Source: Sphingobium sp. (lineage in GTDB: Bacteria; Pseudomonadota; Alphaproteobacteria; Sphingomonadales; Sphingomonadaceae). From it: 43,331 nt of DNA. Positions 457 to 27,838 of the stretch are shown here, in pieces (the first letter of the stretch is position 1; each line of letters opens with the position of its first letter). Under the pieces are notes generated by a model. It was not told the origin of the DNA, searched no databases, and saw only the letters and a list, made by a program, of their open reading frames with translations. The position numbers were made by a program, and so were the translations under genes. The DNA lies in contig JACESO010000014.1 of the NCBI GenBank assembly GCA_013911745.1, forward strand, positions 1 to 43,331. The letters run 5' to 3'.

Positions 457-544
457 TGGAGCCCCCGCCCGTCAGAATCCCACCTTGTGCTTGCGGTAGA
501 TGTTGTACGGAATTTCCTGCTATGGACCGCATAAGGGGGCGGCG

Positions 545-1126
545 ATGCGGATTGTCATTATCGATGATAGCGGTTTGCGCGCAACGGTCCTCGAAGAAGG
601 CCTTCGTGACGCGGGCTATCACGATATCCACATCGTCCCGCCGCGTGGCGCGTTCGTCGCCCGGCTGGAGCGCATGGCGCCCGACGTCGTGCTCATGGAC
701 CTAGGCAGTCCGAGCCGGGATACGCTGGAGGAAATGCTGACCGTCAGCCGCGCGCTGGCCCGCCCCATCGCCATGTTCGTCGATCAGTCGGACGAGGCGA
801 TGATTGGCGCGGCGATCGACGCGGGCGTCTCCGCCTATGTCGTGGACGGGCTGCGCAAGGAGCGGGTGAAGCCGGTGCTCGAACTCGCCGTCCGCCGCTT
901 CAATGCCTTTTCGAAGATGCAGGCCGAACTGGACGAAGCGCGCACCGCTCTTTCGGACCGCAAGATCATCGACCGTGCCAAGTCGATCCTGATGAATCAG
1001 CGCGGCCTGTCGGAACAGGATGCCTATGCGCTGTTGCGGTCGAGCGCCATGAACCAGGGCAAGAAGATCGTGGATGTGGCGCAGGCGCTGATAACGGCGA
1101 GCGACCTGCTCGGAGGGGGACTATGA
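545..1126 (+). CDS. nasT: NasT-type ANTAR antiterminator (nitrate/nitrite response regulator)
   Basis: The 193-residue protein has a receiver-like domain (about 1-115) with acidic residues D7/D8 and D52 at the usual phosphoacceptor strand ([12 protein letters not shown]). A helical linker follows (about 118-138), then a C-terminal ANTAR RNA-binding domain (about 139-188; [20 protein letters not shown], with the Ala and aromatic positions typical of ANTAR). The family binds paired hexaloop hairpins in leader RNA and stops an intrinsic terminator forming; such leaders lie at 5124 and probably 2378. I chose the ATG at 545 because it gives the correct receiver start and has AAGGGGG a few bases upstream; an in-frame ATG at 500 would add an unrelated tail. 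It overlaps nasS by ATGA, which indicates translational coupling to its partner. Confidence 0.93.
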
Positions 1127-2331
1127 CGACGCACCTCAAAATCGCCTTTCTGCCGCTCAACGACGCGGCGGTGCTGGTGGCGGCACGCGAGAAGGGCTTT
1201 GCAGAAGGCGAAGGGCTGAGCATCGACCTCGTCCGCACGACGAGTTGGGCGACGCTGCGCGACCGGCTGGTGTTCGGGCAGGTCCATGCCGCGCAGATGC
1301 TGGCCCCGCTCGCCGTCGCCGTGACCTTGGGGCTGAGCCAGCAACCTGCCGCGCTCGCCGCCCCCTACAAGCTGGGCGTCAACGGCAACATGCTGGTGAT
1401 GGCGAGCGATTTCGCCAAGGCGCTGGAGCCGGATCTCGCTGCACGCGTGTCCGACCCGCTCGGCACCGCGCATGATTTCGCTGCCGCCATCGGATTGTGG
1501 CGGCGCAAGCCGGTGATCGGCGTCGTCCATCGCTTTTCAAGCCACGCCATCATGTTGCGCTACTGGCTGGCGAGCGCAGGTGTCGATCCTGACCGCGATG
1601 TGCTGCTGCGCGTGCTGCCGCCTTCCCTGACGGTCGAGGCGTTGCGAGCCGGCGAAATTGACGGCTTCATTGCGGGCGAGCCGTGGGGCAGCGCGGCGGT
1701 CGAGGCAGGCTTGGCCGAAGCGGTCGCGATCGGCGAGCGCATCTGGCGGCGCGGCGTGGAGAAGGTGCTGGCCTTCCGCGAAGCATGGCTGGAGGAGCAT
1801 TCCGACATCGTTGATCGGCTATTGCGAGCGCTGGCGCGGGCCGCGGCCTGGTGCGACGATCCGGCCAACCATCCCGCCTTGGCCGAACTGCTGGCCGACC
1901 CGCGCTATGTCGATCAGCCCGCCGACCTGATCGCCCGTGCATTGGAAGGGCGTATCGTGGCGCGAGCCGGGGATGCGCCCATCGCCAATCCCGACTTCAT
2001 GCTGTTCAGTCGCGAGGCTACCCCCTTCCCCTGGCGTAGCCAGGCGCTCTGGATCTACTCGCAAATGGTGCGCTGGAAAATGGTGCCGCACGATGCCGCG
2101 ACGATGGCGAAGGCAGGCGCGGTCTTCCGCCCCGATATCTTCCGCCGGGCACTCGCCGATAGCGACATGCCGATGCCTGGTGCCAGCATGAAGGTGGAAG
2201 GCGCGGTCGCCCATCCACTGGCCGTGGGTTCACGCAAGGGAGAACTGACGCTGGGGCCGGATCGCTTTTTCGACGGACGGACGTTCGATCCCGAACGCAT
2301 GGACGAATTTCTGGCTGGCTTCTCCCGCTGA
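1123..2331 (+). CDS. nasS: NasS-type cytoplasmic nitrate sensor
   Basis: This 402-residue protein belongs to the NrtA/NasS group of periplasmic-binding-fold proteins. The start [20 protein letters not shown] shows no signal peptide, lipobox or Tat motif, which separates the cytoplasmic sensor NasS from the exported ABC-transporter subunit NrtA. Family-typical stretches include the LGLSQQPAALAAPYKLGVNG region, IGVVHRFSSHAIMLRYWLA and IDGFIAGEPWGS. No ABC permease or ATPase gene is nearby, which also argues for a sensor. In characterised NasS-NasT pairs, NasS binds NasT without nitrate and frees it when nitrate or nitrite binds; that role here follows from the family and the nasT neighbour. The start codon overlaps the nasT stop (ATGA). 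Confidence 0.9.
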   Translation: MTTHLKIAFLPLNDAAVLVAAREKGFAEGEGLSIDLVRTTSWATLRDRLVFGQVHAAQMLAPLAVAVTLGLSQQPAALAAPYKLGVNGNMLVMASDFAKALEPDLAARVSDPLGTAHDFAAAIGLWRRKPVIGVVHRFSSHAIMLRYWLASAGVDPDRDVLLRVLPPSLTVEALRAGEIDGFIAGEPWGSAAVEAGLAEAVAIGERIWRRGVEKVLAFREAWLEEHSDIVDRLLRALARAAAWCDDPANHPALAELLADPRYVDQPADLIARALEGRIVARAGDAPIANPDFMLFSREATPFPWRSQALWIYSQMVRWKMVPHDAATMAKAGAVFRPDIFRRALADSDMPMPGASMKVEGAVAHPLAVGSRKGELTLGPDRFFDGRTFDPERMDEFLAGFSR

Positions 2332-2377
2332 CATTTTGTGCCTTGCAACATGACGCATATTGCGGGATGATTATCGA

Positions 2378-2428
2378 GTCGCGCGACGAAGCGTGACGCA
2401 TTCGGATGCGCCGTCCCAGGGTGGGGAT
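2378..2428 (+). promoter_or_regulatory. Candidate NasT (ANTAR) target hairpins in nitrate transporter leader
   Basis: Within the nasS-narK gap a 7-pair stem GTCGCGC/GCGTGAC (2378-2397, one G.T pair) closes a six-base loop GACGAA. A second stem GTCCC/GGGAT (2413-2428, one G.T pair) closes the six-base loop AGGGTG. The linker is 15 nt, the same as in the clearer nirB leader. Loop 2 has the A1/G4 pattern required by ANTAR proteins; loop 1 has G4 but G instead of A at position 1. An alternative first hairpin, CGCAT-TCGG-ATGCG (2397-2410), competes with it. The terminator just downstream makes an antitermination role likely. The identity of hairpin 1 is uncertain. Confidence 0.55.
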
Positions 2429-2454
2429 CGTGCCTCCTCACCAGTTTCGCAGCA

Positions 2455-2508
2455 AAGCCGCTGACCGGGTTCGTCCGTCAAGGACGACATTCGGGCTGCG
2501 GCTTTTTT
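2455..2508 (+). terminator. Leader intrinsic terminator before nitrate transporter
   Basis: The outer stem AAGCCGC (2455-2461) pairs with GCGGCTT (2498-2504) and runs into T's to 2508. An inner hairpin TCGTCC/GGACGA (about 2471-2488) stacks within. It lies 36 bp before the narK start codon, after the last nasS stop and behind the candidate ANTAR hairpins. A terminator ahead of the gene it would silence is the expected layout for NasT-controlled attenuation. Confidence 0.75.
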
Positions 2509-2544
2509 CGTGTCCATTTTTCGTCAGAATATGGGGGACATACT

Positions 2545-3789
2545 ATGGCAACCGCTTATTGGGACCGCGAAGGACAGGATGCTTCGGCGTCCGGCGCGAC
2601 CAGCTTCTGGAAGGCCGGCCATATGCCGACCTTGATCGCCGCCTTTCTCTATTTCGACCTCGCCTTCATGGTGTGGGTGCTGTTGGGGCCGCTGGCGCCC
2701 GCCATTTCCAAGACTTTGGCGCTGACCCCGGCGGAAAAGGGGCTGATGGTCGCGACGCCGACCCTGGCCGGTGCGCTGCTGCGGGTCGTGAACGGCTTGC
2801 TGGTGGATCGCATCGGCCCCAAATCGTCGGGCGCGATCAGCCAGTTGATCGTCATCGCGGGCCTGTTCACCGCCTGGGTGATGGGCGTCAACAGCTTTGG
2901 CGGAACGCTGGCGCTGGGCGTTATCCTGGGCTTTGCCGGCGCGAGCTTCGCGATCGCGCTGCCGCTCGCCAGCCGCTGGTATCCGCCCGAGCATCAGGGC
3001 AAGGCGATGGGTCTTGCCGGCATGGGCAATTCGGGAACCGTGCTGGCCTCCCTCTTCGCGCCCGGTCTGGCGAAGCTGTTCGGCTGGAACGCGGTGCTGG
3101 GGCTTGCCTGCATTCCGCTCTCGATCGTGTTCGTCGCCTATATGCTGATGGCGAAGGATGCGCCCAACGCGCCAGCGCCCAAGCGCATGATCGACTATTT
3201 CGAGCCTTTGAAGCAGGCAGACGCCTGGTGGCTGATGGCCTTCTACGCCGTCACCTTCGGCGGCTTCGTGGGCCTGGCCGCCAGCCTGCCCATCTACTTC
3301 ACCGACCAGTTCGGCCTTACCCCGGTGATCGCGGGCTACTGCACCGCCGCCTGCGTCTTCGCCGGATCGCTGGTGCGGCCGATGGGCGGCGCGCTCGCCG
3401 ACAGGATCGGCGGGTCGAAGGCGCTGATGATCGTCTACGCCGTCGCGGCGGTGGCGCTGGCAGGCGTCGGCTTCGCGACGAGCCTGGCAGGGGCGCTTGG
3501 CCTGTTCGTCCTCGCCATGCTGGCACTCGGCACCGGCAACGGATCGGTGTTCCAGTTGGTGCCCCAGCGCTTCCAGGCGGAGATCGGCGTGATGACTGGC
3601 CTTGTCGGAATGGCTGGCGGCATTGGCGGCTTCTATCTCGCCAGTTCGCTGGGCCTCGCCAAGCAGTGGACCGGCAGCTTCGCGCCCGGCTTCCTGATCT
3701 TCGCCGCGCTGGCCATCGTCGCGCTGATCGGCCTCACGCTGGTCAAAGGCAAATGGCGCGCCAACTGGACCAGCGGCGCGCGTATCTGA
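2545..3789 (+). CDS. narK: MFS nitrate/nitrite transporter (NarK/NasA family)
   Basis: The 414-residue protein has about 12 hydrophobic segments and the nitrate-porter features of the NNP family. These include an N-terminal FDLAFMVWVLLGPL segment, the conserved Arg in TLAGALLRVVNGLLVDRIGP on the second helix, and two glycine-rich nitrate-signature-like stretches (GFAGASFAIALPLASRWYPP and GLVGMAGGIGGFYLASSLG). It sits in the inner membrane and would import nitrate, or exchange nitrate and nitrite. AUG at 2545 follows a GGGGGAC ribosome site. It lies behind its own attenuator leader and is followed after 76 bp by an outer-membrane barrel gene, so the pair probably forms one uptake unit. The exact substrate preference cannot be read from sequence. 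Confidence 0.92.
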   Translation: MATAYWDREGQDASASGATSFWKAGHMPTLIAAFLYFDLAFMVWVLLGPLAPAISKTLALTPAEKGLMVATPTLAGALLRVVNGLLVDRIGPKSSGAISQLIVIAGLFTAWVMGVNSFGGTLALGVILGFAGASFAIALPLASRWYPPEHQGKAMGLAGMGNSGTVLASLFAPGLAKLFGWNAVLGLACIPLSIVFVAYMLMAKDAPNAPAPKRMIDYFEPLKQADAWWLMAFYAVTFGGFVGLAASLPIYFTDQFGLTPVIAGYCTAACVFAGSLVRPMGGALADRIGGSKALMIVYAVAAVALAGVGFATSLAGALGLFVLAMLALGTGNGSVFQLVPQRFQAEIGVMTGLVGMAGGIGGFYLASSLGLAKQWTGSFAPGFLIFAALAIVALIGLTLVKGKWRANWTSGARI

Positions 3790-3865
3790 ACGGAGAGGAG
3801 GGCGGCGGGATCGACATGATCATCGCCGCCCCGAAACCATCACGCATCCGAGGGGGGATGAATTC

Positions 3866-5074
3866 ATGAAATATCTGTTTGCGACGGCGGCCATGATGGC
3901 CGTCGCCGGACCTGCCTGCGCGCAGGAAATTCTGCTGAAGCCCGTAGCCGAAGCGCGCCTGCGCTACGAACATGCCGATCAGGCGGGCTTGCCGATAGAC
4001 ACGTCGGACGCTGTCACGGCCCGCGTCCGCGCCGGCGCGATGGCGAGCAGCGGCGCGCTGTCTGCCACGGTCGTCGGACAAGGCACCCTGTCGATCCTGG
4101 ATCGGCGTTATGACGGCCTCAATGGCGCGGCGACCCGACCCCTGATCGCCGATCCGGAGAATGTCGCGCTCTACATCGCGCAACTTCAATATCGCAGCAA
4201 GGCGCTGACGCTGACCGGCGGGCGGCATCATAGGTCTGCCCGTTGTCGCGAAAGGCGACGTTGCCGACGAACCGCTCGTCGTCCAGCGCGATCTTCTGCC
4301 GCCCGGCTGGAACTGGTTCCGGCGAAGGCGCTGAAGATCGACATCGCCTATGCCTGGAGCGCGCGGACCATCTGGGGCTTTCAGGGGCGCGGTGCGCGGC
4401 AGCAGGCCGTCAGCGGCGACAACATTTTCGCCAACCTGTCCTACGCGACGCCGGTCGGCACGCTGACGGGCTTTGCCTATCTGGTCGATCAGGACGAGGC
4501 GGCGGTTCAGGGCTATCGCCTGTCGAGCCAGACCTATGGCGCGCGGCTGGCTGGAGCCTTGCCGATTTCTCGCATCGCCAAAATTTCATACCAGCTCAGC
4601 CATGCGCGTCAGTCGGACTATCATCGCAACCCGAACGATTATCGGGCCGACTATTGGCTGGCGGACGCGACACTGGACGTCAAAGGCTGGAAGCTGAATG
4701 CCGGCTATGAGGTGCTCGGTGCGGATCGGGGGGCGGCGCTCACCAGCTTCCAGACGCCGCTTGGCACCAACTTCAAATTCCAGGGCTGGGCCGACAAGTT
4801 CCTGACCACGCCCGCCAACGGCGTGCGCGATCTCTACGCAGGCGGCGGCTATGGCTGGAAGCGATTGGGGCCGCTGACGGGTGTCTCCTTGCTGGCGACA
4901 TGGCACCGGTTCGACAGCGACCGGCTCGACCAGCATTATGGCAATGAATGGAACCTGCTGGCATCGGCGAAGGCAGGGAAGACCATGCTGTCCGCGCGCT
5001 ACGCCCATTATGACGCGAAGGCATTCGCGACCGATACCGAAAAGCTGTGGCTCCAGGCCGACTGGACGCTCTGA
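3866..5074 (+). CDS. Alginate-export-like outer-membrane beta-barrel protein with an internally inverted segment
   Basis: The 402-residue protein has a signal peptide (MKYLFATAAMMAVAGPACAQ, cut after ACA) and a barrel-type body of alternating strands ending in WLQADWTL. It resembles the alginate-export porin family often found in sphingomonad nitrate clusters, and is probably a channel for nitrate or another small solute (inference). Residues 121-144 do not fit: 11 of 24 are Arg and two are Cys. Reverse-complementing 4228-4296 turns this block into QKIALDDERF followed by VGNVAFRDNGQTYD. That matches the GRQ..LDDxRFVGNVxFRxNxQTYDAxR motif of the family and leaves the frame downstream unchanged. 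The reading frame therefore stays open in both orientations, but the present orientation should damage one strand or loop. RBS GAGGGGGGA precedes the ATG. Confidence 0.85.
   Translation: MKYLFATAAMMAVAGPACAQEILLKPVAEARLRYEHADQAGLPIDTSDAVTARVRAGAMASSGALSATVVGQGTLSILDRRYDGLNGAATRPLIADPENVALYIAQLQYRSKALTLTGGRHHRSARCRERRRCRRTARRPARSSAARLELVPAKALKIDIAYAWSARTIWGFQGRGARQQAVSGDNIFANLSYATPVGTLTGFAYLVDQDEAAVQGYRLSSQTYGARLAGALPISRIAKISYQLSHARQSDYHRNPNDYRADYWLADATLDVKGWKLNAGYEVLGADRGAALTSFQTPLGTNFKFQGWADKFLTTPANGVRDLYAGGGYGWKRLGPLTGVSLLATWHRFDSDRLDQHYGNEWNLLASAKAGKTMLSARYAHYDAKAFATDTEKLWLQADWTL
4219..4305. repeat. 9-bp inverted repeats bounding a 69-bp in-place inversion
   Basis: CGGGCGGCA at 4219-4227 and its reverse complement TGCCGCCCG at 4297-4305 flank 69 bp (exactly 23 codons). 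Read as given, the interior encodes an Arg-rich stretch; read inverted, it encodes the family-like GRQKIALDDERF motif in the right frame. Both arms encode the same residues in either state (GGR on the left, AAR on the right). The structure is either a switchable segment, a fixed inversion from template switching at a short palindrome, or an assembly error. No site-specific recombinase gene lies in the window. Confidence 0.85.
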
Positions 5075-5123
5075 CGTTTTAAGGGTTGAGCGGCGGCGCG
5101 AATCGCCATATGCTGCACTGCAA

Positions 5124-5174
5124 GGGACAAGGATGTCCCACCGACATAGCGGACGCGGTTCAGGGTAGAACCGC
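5124..5174 (+). promoter_or_regulatory. NasT/ANTAR two-hairpin RNA target in nirB leader
   Basis: Hairpin 1 is GGGAC-AAGGAT-GTCCC (5124-5139) and hairpin 2 is GCGGTTC-AGGGTA-GAACCGC (5155-5174), separated by 15 nt. Both loops are exactly six bases with A at position 1 and G at position 4, the consensus for ANTAR-domain antiterminators. Both stems are fully Watson-Crick. A strong intrinsic terminator begins 18 nt downstream and the nirB start lies beyond it. With nasT at 545 this is almost certainly the NasT binding site controlling the reductase operon. Confidence 0.88.
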
Positions 5175-5192
5175 CGATGCGCTCATGATGGC

Positions 5193-5251
5193 AAGGCCGC
5201 CATTCAGACTTTTGGATTTCATGTCCAAGGGTCCGGATGGCGGCCTTTTTT
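5193..5251 (+). terminator. Attenuator terminator in nirB leader
   Basis: A perfect 11-bp stem AAGGCCGCCAT (5193-5203) / ATGGCGGCCTT (5237-5247) is followed by a run of T's to 5251, with a smaller TTGGA/TCCAA hairpin in the loop. It lies 19 bp before the nirB ATG, so without antitermination transcripts would end before the reductase genes. It could also end the preceding barrel-gene transcript. Confidence 0.9.
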
Positions 5252-5270
5252 GTTTCCGAAAGGACCGGGG

Positions 5271-7778
5271 ATGGAACTTCAAGTCAGGAATGACGATCGC
5301 ACGGAAGATGTCGAGGATGCGCTGGTCCCGTTCGAGGATGTCCGCGAGCATCTGGTCGTCGTCGGCAACGGCATGGCCGGCTGCCGCGCGGTGGAGGAAT
5401 TGCTGGCACGCGATGCGGGCCGCTATCGCGTCACCATCTTCGGTGCCGAACCGCATGTGAACTATAACCGCATCATGCTCTCCCCCGTCCTGGCGGGCGA
5501 AAAGAGCTTCGAGGACATCGTCATCAATCCCCGCGCCTGGTATGACGACAATGGCATCGACCTGATCGTCTCCGATCCGATCGTCACGATCGACCGCGCC
5601 GCCAAGAGCGTCACCGCCCGCAGCGGGCGGACGGTCCATTATGACCGGCTGCTGATCGCAACCGGGTCCGATCCCTTCATCATCCCCGTGCCCGGCAAGG
5701 ATTTGCCCGGCGTCATCAGCTTCCGCGACATGAAGGATGTCGACACGATGCTGGATGCCGCCGCGACCGGCGGCAGCGCGGTCGTGATCGGCGGCGGGCT
5801 GCTCGGTCTGGAAGCAGCGCATGGCCTGACGCTGCGCGGCATGAAGGTGACGGTGATCCACCTGATGGACACGCTGATGGAGCGGCAGCTGGATGAAGCG
5901 GCCGGCTGGCTGCTCAAGACCGCGCTGGAGGCGCGCGGGCAGACCATCCTGACCGGTGCCGACACGGCCGAGATTTACGGCGAGGGCAAGGTCGAGGGCG
6001 TGCGGCTCAAGGATGGGCGCGAGATTCCCGCCAGCCTCGTCGTCATGGCGGTCGGCATCCGCCCCGCAACGGCGCTGGCGAAGGAAGCCGGACTGGCGGT
6101 CAATCGCGGCATCCTGGTCGACGATCATATGGTCACCAGCGACCCCAATGTGCTCGCGGTCGGTGAGTGCGTCGAGCATGACGGCAATGTCTATGGCCTC
6201 GTCGCACCGCTGTGGGACATGTGCCGCAGCCTGGCCGACGGCCTGACCGACCGGCACACGGGCTATCGCGGCTCGGTGACCTCGACCAAGCTCAAGGTTG
6301 CAGGCCTGGACGTCTTCTCCGCAGGCGACTTTTCCGGCGGCGACGGGTGCGAGGACATCGTTCTGCGCGACGCCTCCCGGGGCGTCTACAAGCGCGTCGT
6401 CGTCAAGGACGACCGCATCGTCGGCGCGGTGCTTTATGGCGATACGGCCGACGGCGGCTGGTATTTCGACCTGCTGAAAAAAAGCGAGAATATCGCCGAC
6501 ATTCGCGACCTGTTGATCTTCGGCCAGGGTTACGCCTCGGGAGGAGGCGCGCTGGACCCTAAGGCGGCCGTTGCGGCGCTCTCGGACGATGCCGAGATTT
6601 GCGGCTGCAACGGCGTCACCAAGGGCCAGGTCGTGGCCTGCATCGAAAAGGGCGCGTGCAGCCTCGACGCCGTGCGCGCCACCTGCAAGGCGTCGGCCAG
6701 CTGCGGCAGTTGCACGGGCCTCGTTGAAAATCTGCTGGCCGCTGTGCTGGGCGAGGATGTGCAATCCGGCCCCAAGACGATGTGCAAATGCACCAGCTTC
6801 ACCCATGACGATGTGCGGCGGGAAATCGTGGCGCAGAACATGCGCTCCATCCCCGAAGTCATGCAGCGTCTCCACTGGACCACTCCTGATGGCTGTTCCT
6901 CCTGCCGTCCCGCGCTCAACTATTACCTCCTCTGCGCGCTGCCGGGCGAATATCAGGACGACCAGCAGAGCCGCTTCGTGAACGAACGGATGCACGCCAA
7001 CATCCAGAAGGACGGCACCTATTCGGTCGTTCCGCGCATGTGGGGCGGCCTCACCAATCCGCGCGAACTGCGCGCGATCGCCGATGTGGTCGAGAAGTAT
7101 AACGCCCCGATGGTCAAGGTGACGGGCGGCCAGCGGCTCGACATTTTCGGGATCAAGGGCGAGGATCTGCCCGCCGTCTGGGCGGACCTGAACGCCGCCG
7201 GCATGGTCTCGGGCCACGCCTATGGCAAATCGCTCCGCACGGTGAAGACCTGCGTCGGGTCCGAATGGTGCCGCTTCGGCACGCAGGATTCGACCGGCCT
7301 CGGCGTCAAGACCGAGCGGATGACCTGGGGATCGTGGATGCCCCACAAGTTCAAGATTGCGGTGTCGGGCTGCCCGCGCAACTGCGCCGAAGCGACGATA
7401 AAGGATTTCGGCATCGTCTGCGTCGACTCCGGCTATGAGCTGCATGTCGGCGGCAATGGCGGCATCCATGTCCGCGCCACTGACTTGCTGTGCAAGGTAT
7501 CCACCGAGCAGGAAGCGCTCGATTACTGCGCCGCCTTCATCCAGCTCTACCGCGAGGAGGCCCGCTACCTGGAGCGGACCGCGCCTTGGATCGAGCGAGT
7601 CGGCGTCGAGTACATCAAGAGCCGGATCGTCGAGGATGATGCGGGTCGCGAGGCGCTGCGCGCGCGCTTCCTCTATTCGCAGAGCTTCAGCCAGGACGAC
7701 CCCTGGGCCGAGCGCGCGGCGGGCGGCAACGCCGAACTGCACCAGCCCCTCGCCCCTATTGCCATCGCCGCGGAGTAA
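5271..7778 (+). CDS. nirB: Assimilatory nitrite reductase [NAD(P)H], large subunit
   Basis: This 835-residue enzyme reduces nitrite to ammonium in the cytoplasm with NAD(P)H. In order: an FAD-binding fold (LVVVGNGMAGCRAVEELL, about 28-45); an NAD-binding fold (VVIGGGLLGLEAAHG, 171-185); a BFD-like [2Fe-2S] domain with CGCN and CGSC cysteine pairs (about 443-495); a second cysteine-rich BFD-like module (CKC and CSSC, about 504-545); a nitrite/sulfite reductase ferredoxin half-domain (about 565-650); and the sirohaem/[4Fe-4S] domain with TCVGSEWC and GCPRNC supplying the four cysteines (about 660-705). Length is normal. ATG at 5271 follows an AAAGGA/GGGG ribosome site; a TTG at 5250 would lie in the terminator's T-run and was not chosen. 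nirD follows after 5 bp. Confidence 0.96.
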   Translation: MELQVRNDDRTEDVEDALVPFEDVREHLVVVGNGMAGCRAVEELLARDAGRYRVTIFGAEPHVNYNRIMLSPVLAGEKSFEDIVINPRAWYDDNGIDLIVSDPIVTIDRAAKSVTARSGRTVHYDRLLIATGSDPFIIPVPGKDLPGVISFRDMKDVDTMLDAAATGGSAVVIGGGLLGLEAAHGLTLRGMKVTVIHLMDTLMERQLDEAAGWLLKTALEARGQTILTGADTAEIYGEGKVEGVRLKDGREIPASLVVMAVGIRPATALAKEAGLAVNRGILVDDHMVTSDPNVLAVGECVEHDGNVYGLVAPLWDMCRSLADGLTDRHTGYRGSVTSTKLKVAGLDVFSAGDFSGGDGCEDIVLRDASRGVYKRVVVKDDRIVGAVLYGDTADGGWYFDLLKKSENIADIRDLLIFGQGYASGGGALDPKAAVAALSDDAEICGCNGVTKGQVVACIEKGACSLDAVRATCKASASCGSCTGLVENLLAAVLGEDVQSGPKTMCKCTSFTHDDVRREIVAQNMRSIPEVMQRLHWTTPDGCSSCRPALNYYLLCALPGEYQDDQQSRFVNERMHANIQKDGTYSVVPRMWGGLTNPRELRAIADVVEKYNAPMVKVTGGQRLDIFGIKGEDLPAVWADLNAAGMVSGHAYGKSLRTVKTCVGSEWCRFGTQDSTGLGVKTERMTWGSWMPHKFKIAVSGCPRNCAEATIKDFGIVCVDSGYELHVGGNGGIHVRATDLLCKVSTEQEALDYCAAFIQLYREEARYLERTAPWIERVGVEYIKSRIVEDDAGREALRARFLYSQSFSQDDPWAERAAGGNAELHQPLAPIAIAAE

Positions 7779-7783
7779 AAGAC

Positions 7784-8119
7784 ATGACCGACTGGATCGA
7801 TATCGGCACGCTGGACGACATTCCCCAGCGCGGCGCGCGCACGGTGCAACTGCCGGGTGAAAAGGAGATCGCCATATTCCGCACCGGCGACGATCAGCTC
7901 TTCGCTCTCGTGAACGAATGTCCGCACAAGAAGGGACCGCTCAGCCAAGGCATCGTCCATGGCCACAGCGTCGCCTGCCCGTTGCACAACTGGAACATTG
8001 CCCTGAAGACGGGCGAGGCGCAGGGCAATGACGAAGGCTGCACGCCGACGATCGCGGTCAGACAGGATGCAGGCCGCATCCTGATCGCGCGTCCCGCCAC
8101 CGTGCGGGCCGCTGCCTGA
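7784..8119 (+). CDS. nirD: Nitrite reductase small subunit with intact Rieske ligands
   Basis: The 111-residue NirD/NasE-type protein has a Rieske fold. Unlike enterobacterial NirD, whose cluster ligands are lost, this one keeps both halves of the Rieske motif: CPHKKGPL (C-x-H) and CPLHNW (C-x2-H). It should therefore bind a [2Fe-2S] cluster and act as an electron carrier as well as a structural subunit, as in NasE proteins. It follows nirB at 5 bp, and its stop overlaps the start of nasA (TGATG), so nirB, nirD and nasA are translated as one coupled set. Confidence 0.92.
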   Translation: MTDWIDIGTLDDIPQRGARTVQLPGEKEIAIFRTGDDQLFALVNECPHKKGPLSQGIVHGHSVACPLHNWNIALKTGEAQGNDEGCTPTIAVRQDAGRILIARPATVRAAA

Positions 8120-10731
8120 TGGGGAACGCGGTCCGCACCACCTGCGCCTATTGCGGCGTCGGCTGCGGCATTTCCGCGGCGCCGACCGGCCCGCGTGCAG
8201 TCACGATCAAGGGGGATGAGGCGCACCCGGCGAATGCCGGCCGCCTGTGCTCGAAGGGTACGCATCTGGGCGAGACGGTGGGCCTCACCGGCCGCCTCCT
8301 CCACCCGATGATCGGCAACAGGCGGGCAAGCTGGGACAAGGCGCTCGACCTCGTGGCCAGGCGCTTTGCCGAAACGATCGAGCGGTACGGCCCCGACAGC
8401 GTCGCCTTCTACGTCTCCGGCCAATTGCTGACCGAAGATTATTATGTCGCCAACAAGCTGATGAAGGGCTTCATCGGATCGGCCAATATCGACACCAACA
8501 GCCGCCTTTGCATGTCTAGCGCGGTCGCAGGGCATAATCGCGCCTTCGGCGAGGATATCGTGCCCGCCACCTATGCCGATCTCGACGAAGCCGATCTCGT
8601 CATCCTCGTCGGATCGAACACGGCCTGGTGCCACCCCATCGTTTACCAGCGCATCCAGGCCGCCCGCGCCGCGCGCGGCACGAAGCTGGTAGTGATCGAT
8701 CCGCGCCGCACCGAGACCTGCGAAGGCGCGGACCTGCATCTGCCGGTAAAGCCGGGCACCGACGTCGCGCTGATGAACGGGCTGCTCGCCTGGATGGACG
8801 CGAAGGGGCTGACGGACGCCGCCTATCTGGCCGATCATGTCGCCGCACCCGATGACTTCTGGGGCCATATCCGCGCCGGGCACGACCTCTGGACGACCGC
8901 GAAGACGTGCGATCTGCCGCCCGCATCGCTCCAGCAATTTTTCGAGCTGTTCGCCGCCACGCCGCGCACCGTCACGCTGTTCAGCCAGGGCATCAACCAG
9001 TCGATCCGCGGCACCGATCAGGTCAACGCGATCCTCAATCTGCATCTGGCGACAGGGCGCATCGGAAAGCCGGGTGCAGCGCCCTTCTCCATCACCGGCC
9101 AGCCCAATGCGATGGGCGGGCGCGAAGTTGGCGGCCTCGCCTCGACGCTGGCCGCGCATATGGATTTCGCGCCGGAGAATGTCGCACGGGTCGGACGCTT
9201 CTGGGCCGCGCCCGCCATGGCGACGAAGCCGGGACTGAAAGCCGTCGATCTGTTCCGCGCGATCGGAGAGGGCCGCGTCAAGGCGCTGTGGGTGATGGCG
9301 ACCAACCCCGCCGTGTCCTTGCCGGACGCAGGCCGGGTGCGGGACGCGCTGGCTGCCTGCCCGTTCGTCGTCATGTCGGACGTGATCACTGACACAGACA
9401 CCGGCGCTCACGCCCATGTCCGCCTTCCCGCCGCCGCCTGGGGAGAGAAGGACGGCACCGTTACCAACTCCGACCGCACGATCAGCCGCCAGCGCCCCTT
9501 CATGGCGCTGCCCGGCGAAGCGAAACCGGACTGGTGGATCGTCACGCAGGTCGCTCGCCGGATGGGCTGGCAGGGCGCCTTTGCCTATGACCGGCCTGCG
9601 GACATCTGGCGCGAACATGCTCGGTTGACGGCCTATCAGAATGACGGAAAGCGCCTGCTCGACCTGCGGTCGCATGCGACCATCGGCAACCACGCCTATG
9701 ACGCGATGGAACCGTTCCGCTGGGGCGGCGCGCATCCTTTTGCGGATGGAGGTTTCAGCACCCCGGATCGCAAGGCGCGGCTCGTCACCGTCAGGCAGAT
9801 GGACGTGCAGGCGCCCCTGCGCGACTGGCCGATGACGCTCAACACCGGGCGCTATCGCGATCAATGGCACACGATGACGCGCACCGGCTTGTCGCCCAAA
9901 CTTGCCCGCCATCGCGAAGAGCCGCTGGTCGAGATTCATCCCGCAGATGCTCAGGCGCTTGGCATAGCGGACGGCGATCTCGCCCGCATATCCACGCCGC
10001 AGGGGGACAGCATCTTCCGCGCCGCGTTGAACGAGGGTCAGCGCCGGGGCGACATCTTCACGCCGATCCACTGGACCGACCAGATTTCAAGCGGGGGCCG
10101 CACCGGCCTGCTGCCCCGTCCGCTGACCGACCCGCATTCAGGCCAGCCGGGTTTCAAGTCCACGCCTGCCGCCGTGCAGAAGGTGGCGACCGAATGGAAA
10201 GGCTTTCTGATCCGGCGGGGCGACGATCCGGTCGGCCTTCCCTGTCTGTGGGCGACGCGGGTCACGGTGCCAGGCGGCGCGCTCTATGAAATTGCGGGCA
10301 ACGGCGATCCGGCGCGGTTGGAAGCCGCCCTGCCCAAGGGGGACAGGGTCGAAGCGATCGATCCGGCGCGCGGGACGCGACGGTTGGCGATCATCAGGGA
10401 CGGCAAGCTGTCAGCGGTGTTGTTCGTGACGCGCAGCGGCCTCTTGCCATCGCGCGACTGGCTGATTGCCCAGTTGGCTGCCGATGATGTCGGACCGGCC
10501 GTTCTGGCCGCGCGGGGGCCGGGGCGGCAGACGGACAAGGGCGCGACCATCTGCGTCTGTTTCGACATCGGCCTCAACCAGATCGTGGCCGCCATCCGGT
10601 CCCAGCAGCTTATCGACGTGCCCGCCATCGGCAAGGCTATCGGCGCAGGAACCAATTGCGGATCGTGCCGCCCCGCCCTTGCCAACATCCTGATCCAGAC
10701 TTCGCAGGAGACGCTCCATGCAGCCGAATGA
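8119..10731 (+). CDS. nasA: Assimilatory nitrate reductase, catalytic molybdopterin subunit
   Basis: The 870-residue enzyme reduces nitrate to nitrite in the cytoplasm; no Tat or other signal is present. The N-terminus holds the [4Fe-4S] site C9-x2-C12-x3-C16 and C44 (CAYCGVGC, RLCSKG). The molybdopterin-oxidoreductase body follows (SRLCMSSAVAGHNRAFG, LVGSNTAWCHPI, GQPNAMGGREVGG). A molydopterin dinucleotide-binding domain (about 570-690; LNTGRYRDQWHTMTRTG) is next. A C-terminal BFD-like [2Fe-2S] domain (CVC near 812, CGSC near 852) ends the protein and resembles the C-terminal module of Klebsiella-type NasA. No separate NasC-like flavoprotein gene is visible, so the electron donor is unknown; the nirD Rieske protein or NirB are possibilities (inference). 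It overlaps cobA by 14 bp. Confidence 0.95.
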   Translation: MGNAVRTTCAYCGVGCGISAAPTGPRAVTIKGDEAHPANAGRLCSKGTHLGETVGLTGRLLHPMIGNRRASWDKALDLVARRFAETIERYGPDSVAFYVSGQLLTEDYYVANKLMKGFIGSANIDTNSRLCMSSAVAGHNRAFGEDIVPATYADLDEADLVILVGSNTAWCHPIVYQRIQAARAARGTKLVVIDPRRTETCEGADLHLPVKPGTDVALMNGLLAWMDAKGLTDAAYLADHVAAPDDFWGHIRAGHDLWTTAKTCDLPPASLQQFFELFAATPRTVTLFSQGINQSIRGTDQVNAILNLHLATGRIGKPGAAPFSITGQPNAMGGREVGGLASTLAAHMDFAPENVARVGRFWAAPAMATKPGLKAVDLFRAIGEGRVKALWVMATNPAVSLPDAGRVRDALAACPFVVMSDVITDTDTGAHAHVRLPAAAWGEKDGTVTNSDRTISRQRPFMALPGEAKPDWWIVTQVARRMGWQGAFAYDRPADIWREHARLTAYQNDGKRLLDLRSHATIGNHAYDAMEPFRWGGAHPFADGGFSTPDRKARLVTVRQMDVQAPLRDWPMTLNTGRYRDQWHTMTRTGLSPKLARHREEPLVEIHPADAQALGIADGDLARISTPQGDSIFRAALNEGQRRGDIFTPIHWTDQISSGGRTGLLPRPLTDPHSGQPGFKSTPAAVQKVATEWKGFLIRRGDDPVGLPCLWATRVTVPGGALYEIAGNGDPARLEAALPKGDRVEAIDPARGTRRLAIIRDGKLSAVLFVTRSGLLPSRDWLIAQLAADDVGPAVLAARGPGRQTDKGATICVCFDIGLNQIVAAIRSQQLIDVPAIGKAIGAGTNCGSCRPALANILIQTSQETLHAAE

Positions 10732-11497
10732 TCTCATCACGCCCGGAACGGTTTGGCTGGTAGGCGCGGGGCCGGGCGATCCCGATCTCCTGACCCGCAA
10801 GGCGGAACGGTTGATCGGCGCGGCGGACGTGGTTTTCTACGATGCGCTGGTCGGACCGGGCGTGCTGGATCTGGTCCGGCCGTCCACTCAGATGGTGAGT
10901 GTGGGCAAGCGCTCCGGCCGCCATTCCAAGGCGCAGGAGAGCATCAACGACCTGCTCGTCGCAGCGGCGCGGGTGGGCAAGCGGGTCGTGCGGCTCAAGG
11001 GCGGCGACCCCACCCTATTCGGACGCGCCACGGAGGAAATGGAGGCCTTGGCCGATGCGGGCATCGCCTGCTTCCTCTGTCCCGGCATCACGGCCGCCAC
11101 GGCTGCCGCGGCAAGTGCTCGGTTATCCCTGTCGCTGCGCGGCGTTTCCCGGCGCGTGCAATTTGCGACCGCCCATGTGCGCAAAGGCGAAAGCCTGGAT
11201 TTGGACTGGGCTGGCCTGGCGGACCCCAAGGCGACGACCATATTCTACATGGGACGTTCCGCCGCCCGCGATATCAGTTCCAATCTGATCAAGATGGGTC
11301 TTTCCGGAGCCACCCCGGTCATGATCGCCTGCGACATAAGCCTGCCCACGGAACGGTTGCTCTATACCCGCCTGGATTTGCTGCCCCTGTCGGCAGGGGC
11401 GATGGATGAGGGCCAGCCCATGTTGATCCTGGTCGGAGAAGCGATCGGCATCCGTCAGCGCGCGGACCTCGCCTTGGCGACATGGGAGGAGGTTTGA
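10718..11497 (+). CDS. cobA: Uroporphyrinogen-III C-methyltransferase (sirohaem synthesis)
   Basis: The 259-residue SAM-dependent methyltransferase makes precorrin-2 from uroporphyrinogen III, the first step to the sirohaem needed by NirB. It shows the family's N-terminal VWLVGAGPGDPDLLTRKAERL, the conserved DALVGPGVLDL region, VRLKGGDPTLFGR, and a PGITAATAAAA segment. Length fits a stand-alone SUMT; there is no CysG-type oxidase/chelatase half, so those steps must be encoded elsewhere. The start overlaps nasA by 14 bp, and its stop overlaps the next small gene (TGATG), placing it inside the nitrite/nitrate reductase operon. Confidence 0.94.
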   Translation: MQPNDLITPGTVWLVGAGPGDPDLLTRKAERLIGAADVVFYDALVGPGVLDLVRPSTQMVSVGKRSGRHSKAQESINDLLVAAARVGKRVVRLKGGDPTLFGRATEEMEALADAGIACFLCPGITAATAAAASARLSLSLRGVSRRVQFATAHVRKGESLDLDWAGLADPKATTIFYMGRSAARDISSNLIKMGLSGATPVMIACDISLPTERLLYTRLDLLPLSAGAMDEGQPMLILVGEAIGIRQRADLALATWEEV

Positions 11498-11769
11498 TGC
11501 CGATCTCAGGTCGGATTGACATCTGGTTCAACAAGTTTCTTGCTTTCATGGGATCATGCGATGGCAGCGAGTATGTCGAAATTGCGGATATTGCGGCGCA
11601 AGTGGACAGACTTCACAACGAAGTGACGAGGTTGCACCGGGAGAATGCGCGGCTGATCACTCTGCTGGTGCCTGGCGTCACGTCGGAGGGGCGGCATGAT
11701 TGCGACGTTGCCCCTATGCCCTCTGTCAGGTCCGGCAGCGCAGAGTGGCGAGCGCAGCCAGAAACATGA
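11497..11769 (+). CDS. Small leucine-zipper protein ending the nitrate operon, unknown function
   Basis: I do not recognise this 90-residue protein. The start ATG shares its A with the cobA stop (TGATG) and has GGAGGAGG just upstream, so it should be translated by coupling. Residues 36-57 form a clean zipper: V36, L39, V43, L46, N50, L53 and L57 occupy successive a/d positions, with Asn at one a position as in parallel dimeric zippers. The N-terminal 20 residues (MPISGRIDIWFNKFLAFMGS) are amphipathic or weakly hydrophobic. The C-terminal tail is polar and disordered-looking. Its last 44 bp overlap the 3' end of the convergent sugar transporter gene. A small dimeric regulator or adaptor of the reductases is possible but is pure inference. 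Confidence 0.62.
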   Translation: MPISGRIDIWFNKFLAFMGSCDGSEYVEIADIAAQVDRLHNEVTRLHRENARLITLLVPGVTSEGRHDCDVAPMPSVRSGSAEWRAQPET

Positions 11770-13243
11770 CCGCGCCGGCAAAGGCCATGGTCCAGATCGG
11801 CTCAGTCGGGAAAAACTGGTGCATGATCGTGCCCATTACCGTTGCCACCAGCAATTGCGGAATGACGACGAAGGCATTGAACAGCCCCATATAGATGCCA
11901 AGCTTGCTCTGCGGCACGCTGGACGCGAGCATCGCATAGGGCATGGCGAGGGTGGACGCCCATGCGATCCCGATCGCCACTTCCGACAGGAGCAGCGCGT
12001 GCGCATCGCGCAGGACAAGGAAGGACAGGAAGCCGAGCGCGCCGAGCGTCAGCGCCAGCGCATGGGTCTGCGCCTGTCCGATGCGGCGGGCGAGCGGCTG
12101 GAGCAGGAAGGGCGCAGCGAAGGCGGCGACGCCATTATAGGTGGCAAAGAGGATGCCGACCCAATTGCCCCCCGCATTATAGGCAGCACTGGTCGGATCC
12201 GCTGAGCCGAAGACATATTGAGCGACGACCGGCGTGGTATAGATCCACATGATGAAGAGAGCCGACCAGGTGAAGAACTGGACCAGCGCCAGCTTCTTCA
12301 TCATGGGCGGCATGGTCGCGAAATTGCCGACTATATGCCCAAGCAAAGTGTCAGTCTGGCCGCGTGCCATCATGCGGGCCAGTCCATAAGCGGCGATCAG
12401 GCCGCCGAGCAGATAGAGTTCCTTCTCCAATGCCCAGCCCCAGACCGCGGCAATGATGGCAAGGCCGGCGATCATCCACATGGGGCCGCCGGCGGGGACC
12501 GGCGGGGCCTCCTCTTGCGGTGCAGCTTCGTTGGCCTGGGTAAAATCCGCCATTTGTCCGGGCGAATATTCGCGGGTGGTGAGGACCGTCCAGAGCACGG
12601 CCAGGAACAGCGCCGCGCCGCCGATGTAGAAGCTGACCCGCACGGTGTCGGGGATCATGCCGGCGGGCGCGACGTTGGAGACGCCCATCCGGTCGAGCAG
12701 CCACGGAGTCGAAGAGCCGATCACCGCACCGGCGCCGATGAAGGCGGTCTGGATCGCATAGCCCGCCATATGCTGTTCCTTCGCCAGCATATCGCCGACA
12801 AAGGCGCGGAACGGCTCCATCGAGACGTTGAGCGAGGCGTCGAGGATCCAGAGCATCAAGGCGGCGGCGAGCAGGCCCGGCGCATTGGGCATGCCGAACA
12901 GGGCGAGCGCCGCAAACAACGCACCAGCGAAAAAATAGGGCCTGCGCCGACCGAAGCGGCACCATGTGCGGTCGCTATAATGGCCGATCACCGGCTGGAC
13001 CAGAAGGCCGGTCAGCGGCGCGGCGATCCACAGCAGGGCAAGATTGTCGAGACTTTCCCCCAGCGACTGGAAGATGCGCGACATATTGGCGTTCTGCAGC
13101 GCGAAGCCGATCTGGATGCCGAAGAAGCCGAAGCTGATATTCCACAGCCCCCAAAAGCCCTGGCGCGGTCGGCCGTCGGACATCGTGGGGCCTGCTTCCA
13201 GCCCGCTTGCCAGCCCTGTGTCGTTCATCCCGGCCATTCCCAT
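11726..13243 (-). CDS. MFS sugar transporter, GPH/sucrose-maltose type
   Basis: The roughly 505-residue inner-membrane protein has about 12 hydrophobic segments. It resembles the GPH/SUC-type transporters used by caulobacters and sphingomonads for maltose or sucrose. Marks are WNISFGFFGIQIGFALQNAN on helix 1, the helix 2-3 loop QPVIGHYSDRTWCRFGRRRP and the WILDASLNVSMEPFRAFVGD segment. A central hydrophilic, Glu/Pro-rich loop (about 230-255) separates the halves. It would import the maltose or maltodextrins released in the periplasm by the neighbouring amylase. A second in-frame ATG at 13228 is also possible. It is transcribed in the same direction as the hydrolases but lies 150 bp from the last of them. 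I see no copy of the LacI operator before it. The ligand is inferred from context. Confidence 0.88.
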   Translation of the reverse strand: MGMAGMNDTGLASGLEAGPTMSDGRPRQGFWGLWNISFGFFGIQIGFALQNANMSRIFQSLGESLDNLALLWIAAPLTGLLVQPVIGHYSDRTWCRFGRRRPYFFAGALFAALALFGMPNAPGLLAAALMLWILDASLNVSMEPFRAFVGDMLAKEQHMAGYAIQTAFIGAGAVIGSSTPWLLDRMGVSNVAPAGMIPDTVRVSFYIGGAALFLAVLWTVLTTREYSPGQMADFTQANEAAPQEEAPPVPAGGPMWMIAGLAIIAAVWGWALEKELYLLGGLIAAYGLARMMARGQTDTLLGHIVGNFATMPPMMKKLALVQFFTWSALFIMWIYTTPVVAQYVFGSADPTSAAYNAGGNWVGILFATYNGVAAFAAPFLLQPLARRIGQAQTHALALTLGALGFLSFLVLRDAHALLLSEVAIGIAWASTLAMPYAMLASSVPQSKLGIYMGLFNAFVVIPQLLVATVMGTIMHQFFPTEPIWTMAFAGAVMFLAALATLRCRT

Positions 13244-13393
13244 CCTTCGCCTTAACTTCCCATATTTCCCGCAGATTTCGTCATTTTGTTGCGAGCGCCT
13301 GATCCTATCGGAATGTCCACCTGTATGCGGTTACGCAGCCTGACGGGACCGGGCGGGATAGGACAGCCGGGGCGTCTCCCGCACCGATCCGGC

Positions 13394-15451
13394 CTAGCGT
13401 TTGCGCTTGCTCCCGCTGGCGACGAAGCGGATCGCCTGACCGCCACCCGGCGCCAAGTCGAGGCTCAGGACATCGCCCTTCTTCACCTGCTTTTTTTCGA
13501 TGACGATCGCGTGCCGCCCTTCGGTACGATAGTCGGCACCGGGGCCGTCGCGATAGATTTCGGCCGTATAGCTGCGGCCGGCATCGAGGAAGTCGAGCGT
13601 CACCTTCGACGAGCGGGACTGCTCATCGCCCACCGCGCCCAGATACCAGTCGTCGCTCCCCCTGGCCTTGCGCGCGATGGTGACATAGTCGCCCACCTCG
13701 CCATTGAGCGCCCGCGTGTCGGACCAGTCGGTCGGCACATCCTTGATGAACTGGAAGGGGCCGGGATATCTGGCGTAATTTTCCGGCGTATCGGCGGCCA
13801 TCACCACAGGCGAATAGAGGACGACGTAGAGGGCAAGCTGCTTGGCGATGGTCGAATGGATCGTGCTGCCTTCCGAACCCGACAGGCTGAGCACGCCGGG
13901 GGTGAAGTCCATCGGCCCGCCCAGCAGCTGGGTGAAGACCAGGTTCGCCTCATGCTCGGGCGGGTTCTTGCCGCCGACCCAGGCATTATATTCCATGCCC
14001 CGCCCGCCTTCGCGCGCGACCCAGTTGGGATAGGTGCGGCGCAGGCCCGTATCCTTGACCGGTTCATGACTGTCGATGCTGACATGATATTTGGCGGCGG
14101 TCTGCACAACGCGCAGATAATGGTTCACCATCCACTGGCCTTCATGCCATTCGCGATGCTTCGATCCATCGGCATCGACCCGTTCGATCTGCCCCGCATC
14201 GGTGACATAGCCGGTCTTCACCACCTGCTCGCCATGGTCAGCCGCCCAGTTGAAGGCGGTATCGAGTTGCCCGTCATAATGGCTGGCCGATCCGCCGGTT
14301 TCATGATGGCCGATCAGCGTGACGCCTTTCGACTTTGCATAGGCGGCAAGTCCATCGGCATCAAAGTCCTCGGTGGGTCGCGAGAAGTTCATGTCGTTGC
14401 CGTTGCCGAACCAGTTGCCGTCCCAGCCGACATTCCAGCCTTCGACCAGCACGGCAGGGATGCCGCTGGCCGCGGCGAAATCGATGTAGCGGCGGACATT
14501 GGCGGTTGTGGCGCCATGTTTGGGGCCGCGCGCCCAGGTCCAGTCGCCCTTGATCATGTTCCACCACACGCCGACGAACTTGCCCGGCTTGATCCAGCTG
14601 GACACGTCACCGAGCTTGTTCGGCTCGTTCAAGTTCAGGATCATGTGGTTCATGTAGAGGCCGGCGGCATCGTCCGCGATGGCGATGGTGCGCCAGGGGG
14701 TGGAGAAGCCGGCGTCGCGCGACACCTTCGGCCCGCCCGAACCGGGCGTCAGCGAAGCGCGGAAGACGGTGCCTTCGGCACGGGCGAGATTCATGGCCGA
14801 ATAGTCGACCAGCGCCGCCTCATGCAGGGCGACATGGGTGCCATCGGCCAGCTTCACCGTCATCACCGTCTGCGCGGTGCCGACCGCGTCGAGCGGGGTG
14901 CGGTTGTAGAGATATTCCTCGCGATTCCATTCATAGGCTGGCTTCCACCAGGCGGTGCCGCCCTGCGCGAAGGCGAACTGGGTCAGCTCCTCGGCGATGT
15001 TGGCGTGATGGAGATTGGCCTGGTCCGGCAGCGTGTAGCGGAAGGCGACGCCATCGTCGAACAGGCGGAAGGTCACGTCCATCTCGCGCTTGAGATCCCC
15101 CTTCTCGCGGAAGCTGAGCTTCAGCTCATTATGATGGTCGCGGATCGTGGCCCATTCGCCCCAGGGCTGGCTCCAGCTTGTGTCGCTGCTGGCCTGCTTG
15201 CTATCCGCAAGCGTCAGGTTGCGCTCGATCTTGGGCGCGTCGGTGAACATGAAGCCCAGGCGGCTGTCGACGATCAGCGGCTTGCCGTTGCGCTGCACGG
15301 CATAGCTCGGGCGGCCCTCCCCATCGAGGCTGATGGAGAGGGTGATATGGCCATCGGGCGAGGATGCCTGGGCCACCACATCGGCCCGGGCGGCTGCGGG
15401 GGCGAGCGCCAGGGCTATGAGAGGCAGGGCGAGCGCGGTCAGTCGCTTCAT
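13394..15451 (-). CDS. Glycoside hydrolase family 97, alpha-glucosidase-like, exported
   Basis: The 685-residue enzyme has a signal peptide (MKRLTALALPLIALALAPAAARA, cut near 23). A GH97 N-terminal beta-sandwich, a catalytic TIM barrel and a C-terminal beta domain follow. Family blocks are VLVEGWNVGWDGNWFGNGND, LIGHHETGGSASHYD, SIDSHEPVKDTGLRRTYPNW, GMEYNAW and PPEHEANLVFTQLLGGPMDF. Glu at 463, 487, 499 and 501 fall in the blocks that carry calcium-binding and catalytic Glu in inverting, SusB-like GH97 enzymes; a retaining alpha-galactosidase-type member is less likely. It should release glucose from maltodextrins in the periplasm or at the outer membrane. The longer upstream frame overlaps the previous gene, and MKRLT is the only start giving a signal peptide. 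It lies 10 bp after the GH13 gene. Confidence 0.93.
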   Translation of the reverse strand: MKRLTALALPLIALALAPAAARADVVAQASSPDGHITLSISLDGEGRPSYAVQRNGKPLIVDSRLGFMFTDAPKIERNLTLADSKQASSDTSWSQPWGEWATIRDHHNELKLSFREKGDLKREMDVTFRLFDDGVAFRYTLPDQANLHHANIAEELTQFAFAQGGTAWWKPAYEWNREEYLYNRTPLDAVGTAQTVMTVKLADGTHVALHEAALVDYSAMNLARAEGTVFRASLTPGSGGPKVSRDAGFSTPWRTIAIADDAAGLYMNHMILNLNEPNKLGDVSSWIKPGKFVGVWWNMIKGDWTWARGPKHGATTANVRRYIDFAAASGIPAVLVEGWNVGWDGNWFGNGNDMNFSRPTEDFDADGLAAYAKSKGVTLIGHHETGGSASHYDGQLDTAFNWAADHGEQVVKTGYVTDAGQIERVDADGSKHREWHEGQWMVNHYLRVVQTAAKYHVSIDSHEPVKDTGLRRTYPNWVAREGGRGMEYNAWVGGKNPPEHEANLVFTQLLGGPMDFTPGVLSLSGSEGSTIHSTIAKQLALYVVLYSPVVMAADTPENYARYPGPFQFIKDVPTDWSDTRALNGEVGDYVTIARKARGSDDWYLGAVGDEQSRSSKVTLDFLDAGRSYTAEIYRDGPGADYRTEGRHAIVIEKKQVKKGDVLSLDLAPGGGQAIRFVASGSKRKR

Positions 15452-15461
15452 GGGAACGTCC

Positions 15462-18889: not shown

Positions 18890-18968
18890 CCCTCCCCTGC
18901 CGCTTGTGCCTGATTGCCGCGACTTGGCTCCTTCTTAGTCGGCGGTTACCGGCCGGGCCAAGGGGCCG

Positions 18969-18980
18969 GCATACGTATTC
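18969..18980. promoter_or_regulatory. Probable LacI-family operator GCATACGTATTC (amylase/lacI)
   Basis: GCATACGTATTC is a near-palindrome centred on ACGT. The identical 12-mer occurs at 23071, upstream of the TonB-dependent receptor, and I found no other copy in the window. Here it lies between two divergent starts, 48 bp before lacI and 80 bp before the amylase start, so one site could control both. LacI proteins bind palindromes with a central CpG of this kind. Assignment to this regulator rests on context. Confidence 0.75.
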
Positions 18981-19027
18981 AAAGCCGCCGCCTTCCCAAT
19001 CCGAGCGCGGAGGCGTAAAGTTCGGCG

Positions 19028-20050: not shown

Positions 20051-20108
20051 GGATTTTCAAAGCCTACGAACGGCAAACCATGCGCTTCCCTCTCGCCCCA
20101 AGGAAAAG

Positions 20109-20174
20109 CGGACCGCCCTCCCCTCAAAGGGGTGGCGGTCCGGGGAGGAGGATTGCCCGCGTGCAGTCGGGCAA
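20109..20174 (-). terminator. Hairpins between convergent lacI and TonB-receptor genes
   Basis: A long stem CGGACCGCC (20109-20117) / GGCGGTCCG (20134-20142), extended inside by CCCCT/AGGGG, is followed on the minus strand by CTTTTCC. That makes it an intrinsic terminator for the receptor gene. A second hairpin TTGCCCG/CGGGCAA (20153-20174) precedes it on that strand. On the plus strand the big stem is not followed by T's, so lacI termination there is less certain. Confidence 0.7.
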
Positions 20175-20191
20175 CCCGGGGGAAGGCTGGG

Positions 20192-22972: not shown

Positions 22973-23070
22973 GACGGTTATCCTCCCCAGGACGCATCTT
23001 GAGCGTTTCTTGCCGACATGTGTCGGTCCGCTTCCAATACCGTCGCCCCTGTCGCTCTGCACAGAATCCA

Positions 23071-23082
23071 GCATACGTATTC
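23071..23082. promoter_or_regulatory. Probable LacI-family operator GCATACGTATTC (TonB receptor)
   Basis: An exact copy of the 12-mer found at 18969 lies 99 bp upstream of the receptor start, a typical promoter-region position. It links the receptor to the same LacI regulator as the hydrolase operon. Confidence 0.75.
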
Positions 23083-27555: not shown

Positions 27556-27712
27556 GTTTGCTGCTCCCCTCCCCTGCTGTGATAGCGCTGTCATCGGCAT
27601 GCATGCCTATCAGGCGGCATCACCAAAGCAAGCGCCGCCGAAGCAGATGCGCTAGCCGGTCGATGGGCAGTTTGCCGATGTGTTTGCACTCCTCCTCGAT
27701 AAGGCGGCGCAC

Positions 27713-27729: not shown

Positions 27730-27838
27730 TTGAGTGACGCCATCCTGTCATCGAAATCGACTTAAACTGCCATGACATGACGCTACCCGGCCGGCTGCGC
27801 GCATCGTGCGCATCACGGATGTTGGGGGATCTTCACAC

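Follow-up and report, generated by a model that had tools for sequence, protein, structure and literature searches.

A candidate template-switch micro-inversion between 9-bp inverted repeats in a porin gene of a Sphingobium nitrate operon

Why does an outer-membrane porin gene in a nitrate operon of a Sphingobium sp. carry 23 arginine-rich codons between two short inverted repeats? An earlier note on this DNA had read the segment as an in-frame inversion and had named a phase switch, a template switch at a short palindrome and an assembly flip as its possible origins. We compared the locus with its relatives, and among these three options the template switch proved the best supported, whereas the phase switch gained no specific support. 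The coordinates in Table 1 refer to the window, that is, the whole stretch of 43,331 nucleotides that was analysed.

Table 1. Features of the nitrate operon and of the inverted segment in the window
Feature	Position	Strand	Remarks
ANTAR response regulator	500-1126		
MFS transporter upstream of the porin gene	2545-3789	+	PF07690; nitrate/nitrite type by context only
Outer-membrane porin gene	3866-5074	+	402 aa; predicted 18-stranded barrel, alginate-export/OprD-like; nitrate assimilation operon
Left arm CGGGCGGCA	4219-4227	+	G-G-R-Q codons
Inverted interior, 69 bases	4228-4296	-	minus-strand reading gives the conserved loop QKIALDDERFVGNVAFRDNGQTY(D)
Right arm TGCCGCCCG	4297-4305	+	D-A-A-R; exact reverse complement of the left arm
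Assimilatory nitrite reductase large subunit, downstream	5250-7778 (ORF as listed)	+	NIR_SIR, Pyr_redox_2
Molybdopterin oxidoreductase	8119-10731		nitrate reductase by context; follows nitrite reductase

The segment itself was found to be as the earlier note had described it. The two arms match in 9 of 9 positions and enclose exactly 69 bases, a multiple of 3, so that the reading frame is preserved. In the orientation given, residues 121-144 read HHRSARCRERRRCRRTARRPARSS, and we counted 11 Arg and 2 Cys among these 24. When only the interior was reverse-complemented, the same residues became QKIALDDERFVGNVAFRDNGQTYD and the frame was unchanged.

A 9-bp inverted repeat is not remarkable by itself. 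Maximal inverted repeats of at least 9 bp, with loops between 3 and 100 bp, number 49 in the window, four of them beginning within 3700-5100; 20 first-order Markov sequences gave a mean of 36 (sd 4.3). We also considered a strong hairpin as the cause and rejected it: in a single-strand DNA fold of 4200-4325 the arms did pair, but the fold was no better than that of shuffled sequences (z -0.77; 40 of 200 shuffles equal or better).

Relatives were gathered by a search of the genus (94 genomes, the source genome included, with a match of some length in 82) and from extra samples comprising 19 further stretches and a scan of named genomes (68 loci). The 118 loci pooled gave 83 distinct matched gene sequences, 82 besides that of the window; these 82 are related to one another and are hence non-independent samples. 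The inverted orientation was seen in none of them; each of the 82 has the motif, or a close variant of it, in the non-inverted order. Over the 69 interior positions the mean number of mismatches to the relatives was 12.5 for the restored sequence and 59.2 for the sequence as given, so that the inversion is far beyond chance. Similarly, in tblastn the restored protein scored better at 116 of the 118 loci, the other two (L001 and L002) being the window itself. Because the relatives carry the non-inverted order and fit the restored interior and protein better, it is the window that holds the derived state, and the earlier claim of an inversion stands. The same note had pointed out that both orientations are free of stop codons. 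This is true but not special: when the same segment was inverted in silico in the relatives, the frame stayed open in 67 of the 82, with 3-11 Arg, and an open frame both ways is therefore no evidence of design.

The arms were then compared in the same set. The window's left arm is the commonest native left arm, identical in 22 of the 82 relatives, while TGCCGCCCG occurs at the place of the right arm in none of them, the native residues there being mostly D-A-V-R. At the position where the window has Ala, the relatives have Val in 76 cases, Met in 3 and Ile, Leu and Ala in one each; the single other D-A-A-R belongs to relative L112. The relatives' own arms match each other in 3 of 9 positions in 5 sequences, 4 in 24, 5 in 29, 6 in 18, 7 in 5 and 8 in 1, and the perfect 9/9 match was found in the window only. 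When the right arm was scored as a copy of each relative's left arm or as a descendant of its own right arm, the copy was better in 67 of the 82 and the two tied in 9; in the other 6 the model of a kept arm was better, which together with the ties counts against a template switch. The mean mismatches were 1.39 of 9 to the left-arm copy and 3.37 of 9 to the native right arm. Repeating the comparison in mirror image on the left arm adds nothing, since with exactly complementary arms it comes to the same thing. The product of column frequencies, in which the columns are assumed to be independent and the relatives are not, was 1.4e-4 for the right arm and 0.14 for the left. The right arm thus looks like the homogenised one, a copy of the left arm that brought a change of V to A, although an earlier ordinary substitution is also possible. 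Beside the left junction (window 4228-4233, restored residue 143) the window has a Tyr (TAT) where 81 of the 82 relatives have Phe and one has Tyr; this may be native variation, or a further error made during the inversion event.

An inverted spacer together with a homogenised arm points to template switching between imperfect inverted repeats, a signature known in yeast, and two of its marks, a spacer that is the reverse complement of the ancestral one and perfect arms in the derived allele, are present here. Judging from these comparisons, we consider a single, recent, one-off template-switch micro-inversion in this lineage, which replaced a conserved loop, to be the best explanation, with a probability of about 0.55. 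The ancestor would have carried the GGRQ codons (GGC GGG CGG CAG) and the DAVR codons as a partly complementary pair. In the first step the polymerase, having copied the left arm, would have switched to the other strand, at the complementary right arm there, and from that point have copied in reverse first the 69-base spacer and then the left arm; in the second it would have resumed on its original template at the right arm. The outcome would be an inverted spacer, a right arm that is an exact copy of the left one (V to A) and a frame that is kept, and neither a recombinase nor reversibility would be required.

There is a precedent for the combined outcome. At REG2 of yeast the spacer inversion and the arm conversion are described as occurring at once (PMC8604942). 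Among the yeast cases set out in the same excerpt, nine of ten spacer inversions lie between arms that were already perfect and only REG2 adds an arm conversion; the arms measure 10-16 bp and the spacers 2-5 bp, with shorter spacers favoured. A 9-bp arm and a 69-bp spacer lie outside this range as reported there, which speaks against a template switch, as do the change of F to Y by the left junction, unexplained by copying of the arm, and a fold that is not unusually stable. The arms may also have become perfect first by substitution, with inversions then found preferentially at such places. In its full form this alternative holds that an ordinary substitution (V to A) made the arms perfect and that recombination or a template switch inverted the spacer later. 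D-A-A-R does occur in relative L112, and the nine yeast inversions between perfect arms (PMC8604942, in the part cited) would suit such an order. Two rare steps would be needed, however, and the right arm is about 3.4 of 9 bases away from the right arms of the relatives, so we regard arms perfected in advance as extremely doubtful.

The age of the event was judged from the state of the gene. In an analysis of 46 sequences, the window copy broke 13 of 19 invariant columns inside residues 118-150 and 1 of 118 outside them; for these outside columns the relatives, in leave-one-out runs, broke a mean of 1 and a maximum of 6. A pseudogene was considered and set aside, the gene being ordinary outside the segment. 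Its branch is not unusually long (rank 14 among 46 tips), and in the gene-only tree the closest tip is L070 (Novosphingobium fluoreni). Against the ten nearest relatives the restored interior showed 5-10 synonymous and 1-3 non-synonymous codon differences of 24. Since the differences are mostly synonymous, the ancestral frame was under selection at the protein level until recently, and by this measure the restored interior has seen no decay since the inversion. With no decay and an otherwise ordinary gene, the inversion must be very recent, or confined to part of the population, or an artefact. An in-frame stop is found in 3 of the 82 relatives, at residue 345 of 401 (L083), 216 of 382 (L089) and 153 of 392 (L108) of the matched stretch. 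Loss of the porin may be tolerated, given these stops; alternatively they may be frame or sequencing errors.

An undecayed restored version is also what a reversible intragenic inverton would show, in which a recombinase or recurrent template switching toggles the porin loop between two versions. The gene encodes a surface protein, and short inverted repeats do lie within it around an in-frame, stop-free segment; moreover, the excerpt on yeast (PMC8604942) reports spacers flipping either way. The search for a recombinase that the earlier note had suggested was positive for the genome, with 11 matches to the phage integrase family (9 above the cut-off) and 3 to the resolvase family, but none of them lies on the window's contig, and such families are common (PF00589 in 14 of 14 control genomes and PF00239 in 10 of 14). 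The architecture of the repeat is not kept in the relatives, none of the 82 having a perfect repeat or the inverted order. The 9-mer of the arm occurs 34 times in 259 kb of the genome, where about 12 occurrences are expected from base composition, yet two copies facing each other as they do here, no more than 400 bp apart, occur once in these 259 kb, at this locus. Finally, the alternative form would be Arg-rich antisense coding that breaks a highly conserved motif, and the relatives, if inverted, would likewise give 3-11 Arg. With the repeat unconserved and paired once in this order over 259 kb, and the recombinase families off this contig, we rejected the recombinase-driven phase switch of the porin, and a reversible inverton of any kind seems clearly improbable. 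A version without a recombinase can be imagined, in which coding constraint on GGRQ...DAVR keeps an imperfect repeat around loop 3 of nitrate-operon porins and template switching during replication occasionally flips this loop from its conserved form to an Arg-rich one, reversibly once the arms are perfect; we consider it very improbable.

A substantial chance, alongside the template switch in the cell, has to be given to a chimera formed in vitro. Here the gene of the cell would be normal, and reads made chimeric by annealing of the arms during end repair, PCR or whole-genome amplification would have entered the consensus. The source genome is a draft of 2.89 Mb in 147 contigs, 81% complete, and the window makes up all of contig 46; the restored order gives an ordinary gene without decay. 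The complete 87-bp event fits one short read, and low coverage could allow two junctions and a converted arm. In the part of the study cited, sonication libraries are described as yielding chimeric reads that carry an inverted sequence between nearly perfect inverted repeats; annealing and end repair are invoked, and the filter for such chimeras takes in total repeat lengths from 8 bp upwards (PMC10908179). The same text describes them as low-frequency and mostly soft-clipped, with extra-long chimeric reads also mentioned. We take such soft-clipped chimeras to be mainly of one junction, whereas this consensus has both. By our reasoning, two chimeras with one junction each would not alter the right arm, and D-A-A-R would then be the native sequence, yet Ala is found at that position in only 1 of the 82 relatives. 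We therefore hold an artefact of this kind to be a serious but less probable origin than the template switch.

Other regions of the genome were inspected for signs of the same fault. When the syntenic 8-10.8 kb of the window were compared with 11 relatives, no further coding micro-inversion turned up; nor did one in contigs C2 (about 18 kb) and C13 (about 14.7 kb), compared with two relatives, or, by eye and among the matches listed, in a 20-kb stretch of contig C1 compared with six. This argues against a generally chimeric assembly, though a single bad spot is still possible. A repeat of 9 bp is below the usual k-mer sizes of assembly. A pure flip in the assembly graph for this reason seems unlikely, and chimeric reads would be needed.

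What the template switch would mean for the protein depends on where the segment lies. Three relatives scored 20.2, 25.3 and 24.9 bits against Pfam Alginate_exp PF13372, for which the cut-off is 25.2, and the porin copy of the window had no Pfam match at E 0.001. The structure model of relative L005 (mean pLDDT 75) has 18 strands by count, and Foldseek with this model returned the porins OccK7, OprD and AlgE, with a query TM of about 0.53-0.64 and an rmsd of 6-9. In it the segment falls between the strands at 114-120 and 139-153, and by the pattern of short turns and long loops we place it in the predicted third extracellular loop, which is modelled with low confidence (pLDDT below 50 at 124-138). 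In porins the constriction is commonly formed by loop 3. The inversion would have turned the highly conserved loop 3 motif LDDERFVGN..FR.N.QTFDA into the Arg-rich stretch, and such a replacement would most likely impair the channel. The window protein as given was modelled with a mean pLDDT of 72.4, falling to 36 and 29 in blocks 121-130 and 131-140, where the model of L005 has 50 and 43. This agrees with a disrupted loop and is weak evidence, the loop being poorly modelled in both proteins. On plasmids, 17 records matched the gene; the four nearly full-length ones were 70-72% identical, so there is no plasmid copy near this species among them.

Opposite-strand matches of another kind were met in the surroundings. 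Among the 11 relatives (55 pairs, 563 kb aligned) one such match lies just before nirB in 53 of the 55 pairs, and a single pair has one further stretch, near 8.2-8.3 kb, within the gap left unaligned ahead of the nitrate reductase gene; we read both as palindromes. Just before nirB, at 5227-5248 in the region 5185-5250, there is a terminator-like hairpin with a T run. Together with the ANTAR regulator upstream, this hairpin resembles a leader attenuator for the nitrate operon; for 5185-5250 Rfam gave no match at the gathering threshold. Contig C2 has two nested opposite-strand matches, L151:18214-18310 and 8209-8246, which fall between likely genes (ORFs 16100-18199 and 18334-18819 for the former, 7072-8082 and 8316-9380 for the latter), with short overlapping ORFs present at 8209-8246. 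Both being intergenic and palindrome-like, they were rejected as signs of general micro-inversion in this genome. The match at L151:18214-18310 is a palindromic repeat with ends like CCGGGATGACGAC, is in the opposite orientation relative to G053 and has no aligned counterpart in G066; it is probably a REP-type element. The nitrate operon (517-11334) is syntenic with the relatives, unlike the region 11300-31299 of the window, which is poorly syntenic with two of them.

If real, the micro-inversion would be a clean example, from nature and in a bacterium, of a long template-switch inversion (69-bp spacer), caught before decay and with the homogenised arm as its footprint, and it would show that one step can swap 23 codons and mimic an intragenic phase switch. 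If it is an artefact, draft genomes can hold false intragenic invertons at short inverted repeats. In either case, setting the arms against their counterparts in related genes helps to tell a real inversion, a switch and an artefact apart. This locus was not found in the literature on bacterial coding microinversions, intragenic inversions or invertons, template switching and Sphingobium nitrate porins, among the matches listed. The kind of event is already known, and an example from bacterial coding sequence with a spacer of 69 bp would add to it modestly.

Among known systems, intragenic invertons (Chanin et al. 2024, as cited in PMC11868660) are described in the cited passage as gene segments that invert and recode the protein. 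The locus shares with them the inverted repeats inside a gene around a recoding segment, and differs in that one orientation is present in the consensus and the repeat is not conserved. With the library chimeras, as far as they are described in the portion of PMC10908179 used here, it shares the inversion of the sequence between short inverted repeats; those are low-frequency, soft-clipped reads of human libraries, unlike the two-junction consensus of the window. The quasipalindrome-associated mutations of E. coli (PMC7202029, in the part cited) are likewise bacterial and attributed to template switches between imperfect inverted repeats, but in the window the spacer is inverted as well. The closest likeness is to yeast REG2 as presented in the excerpt of PMC8604942, with a perfect derived repeat, a reverse-complemented spacer and one converted arm within a coding sequence; unlike the yeast cases described there, this one comes from a sphingomonad bacterium and a single consensus, and it combines a 9-bp arm with a 69-bp spacer of 23 codons.
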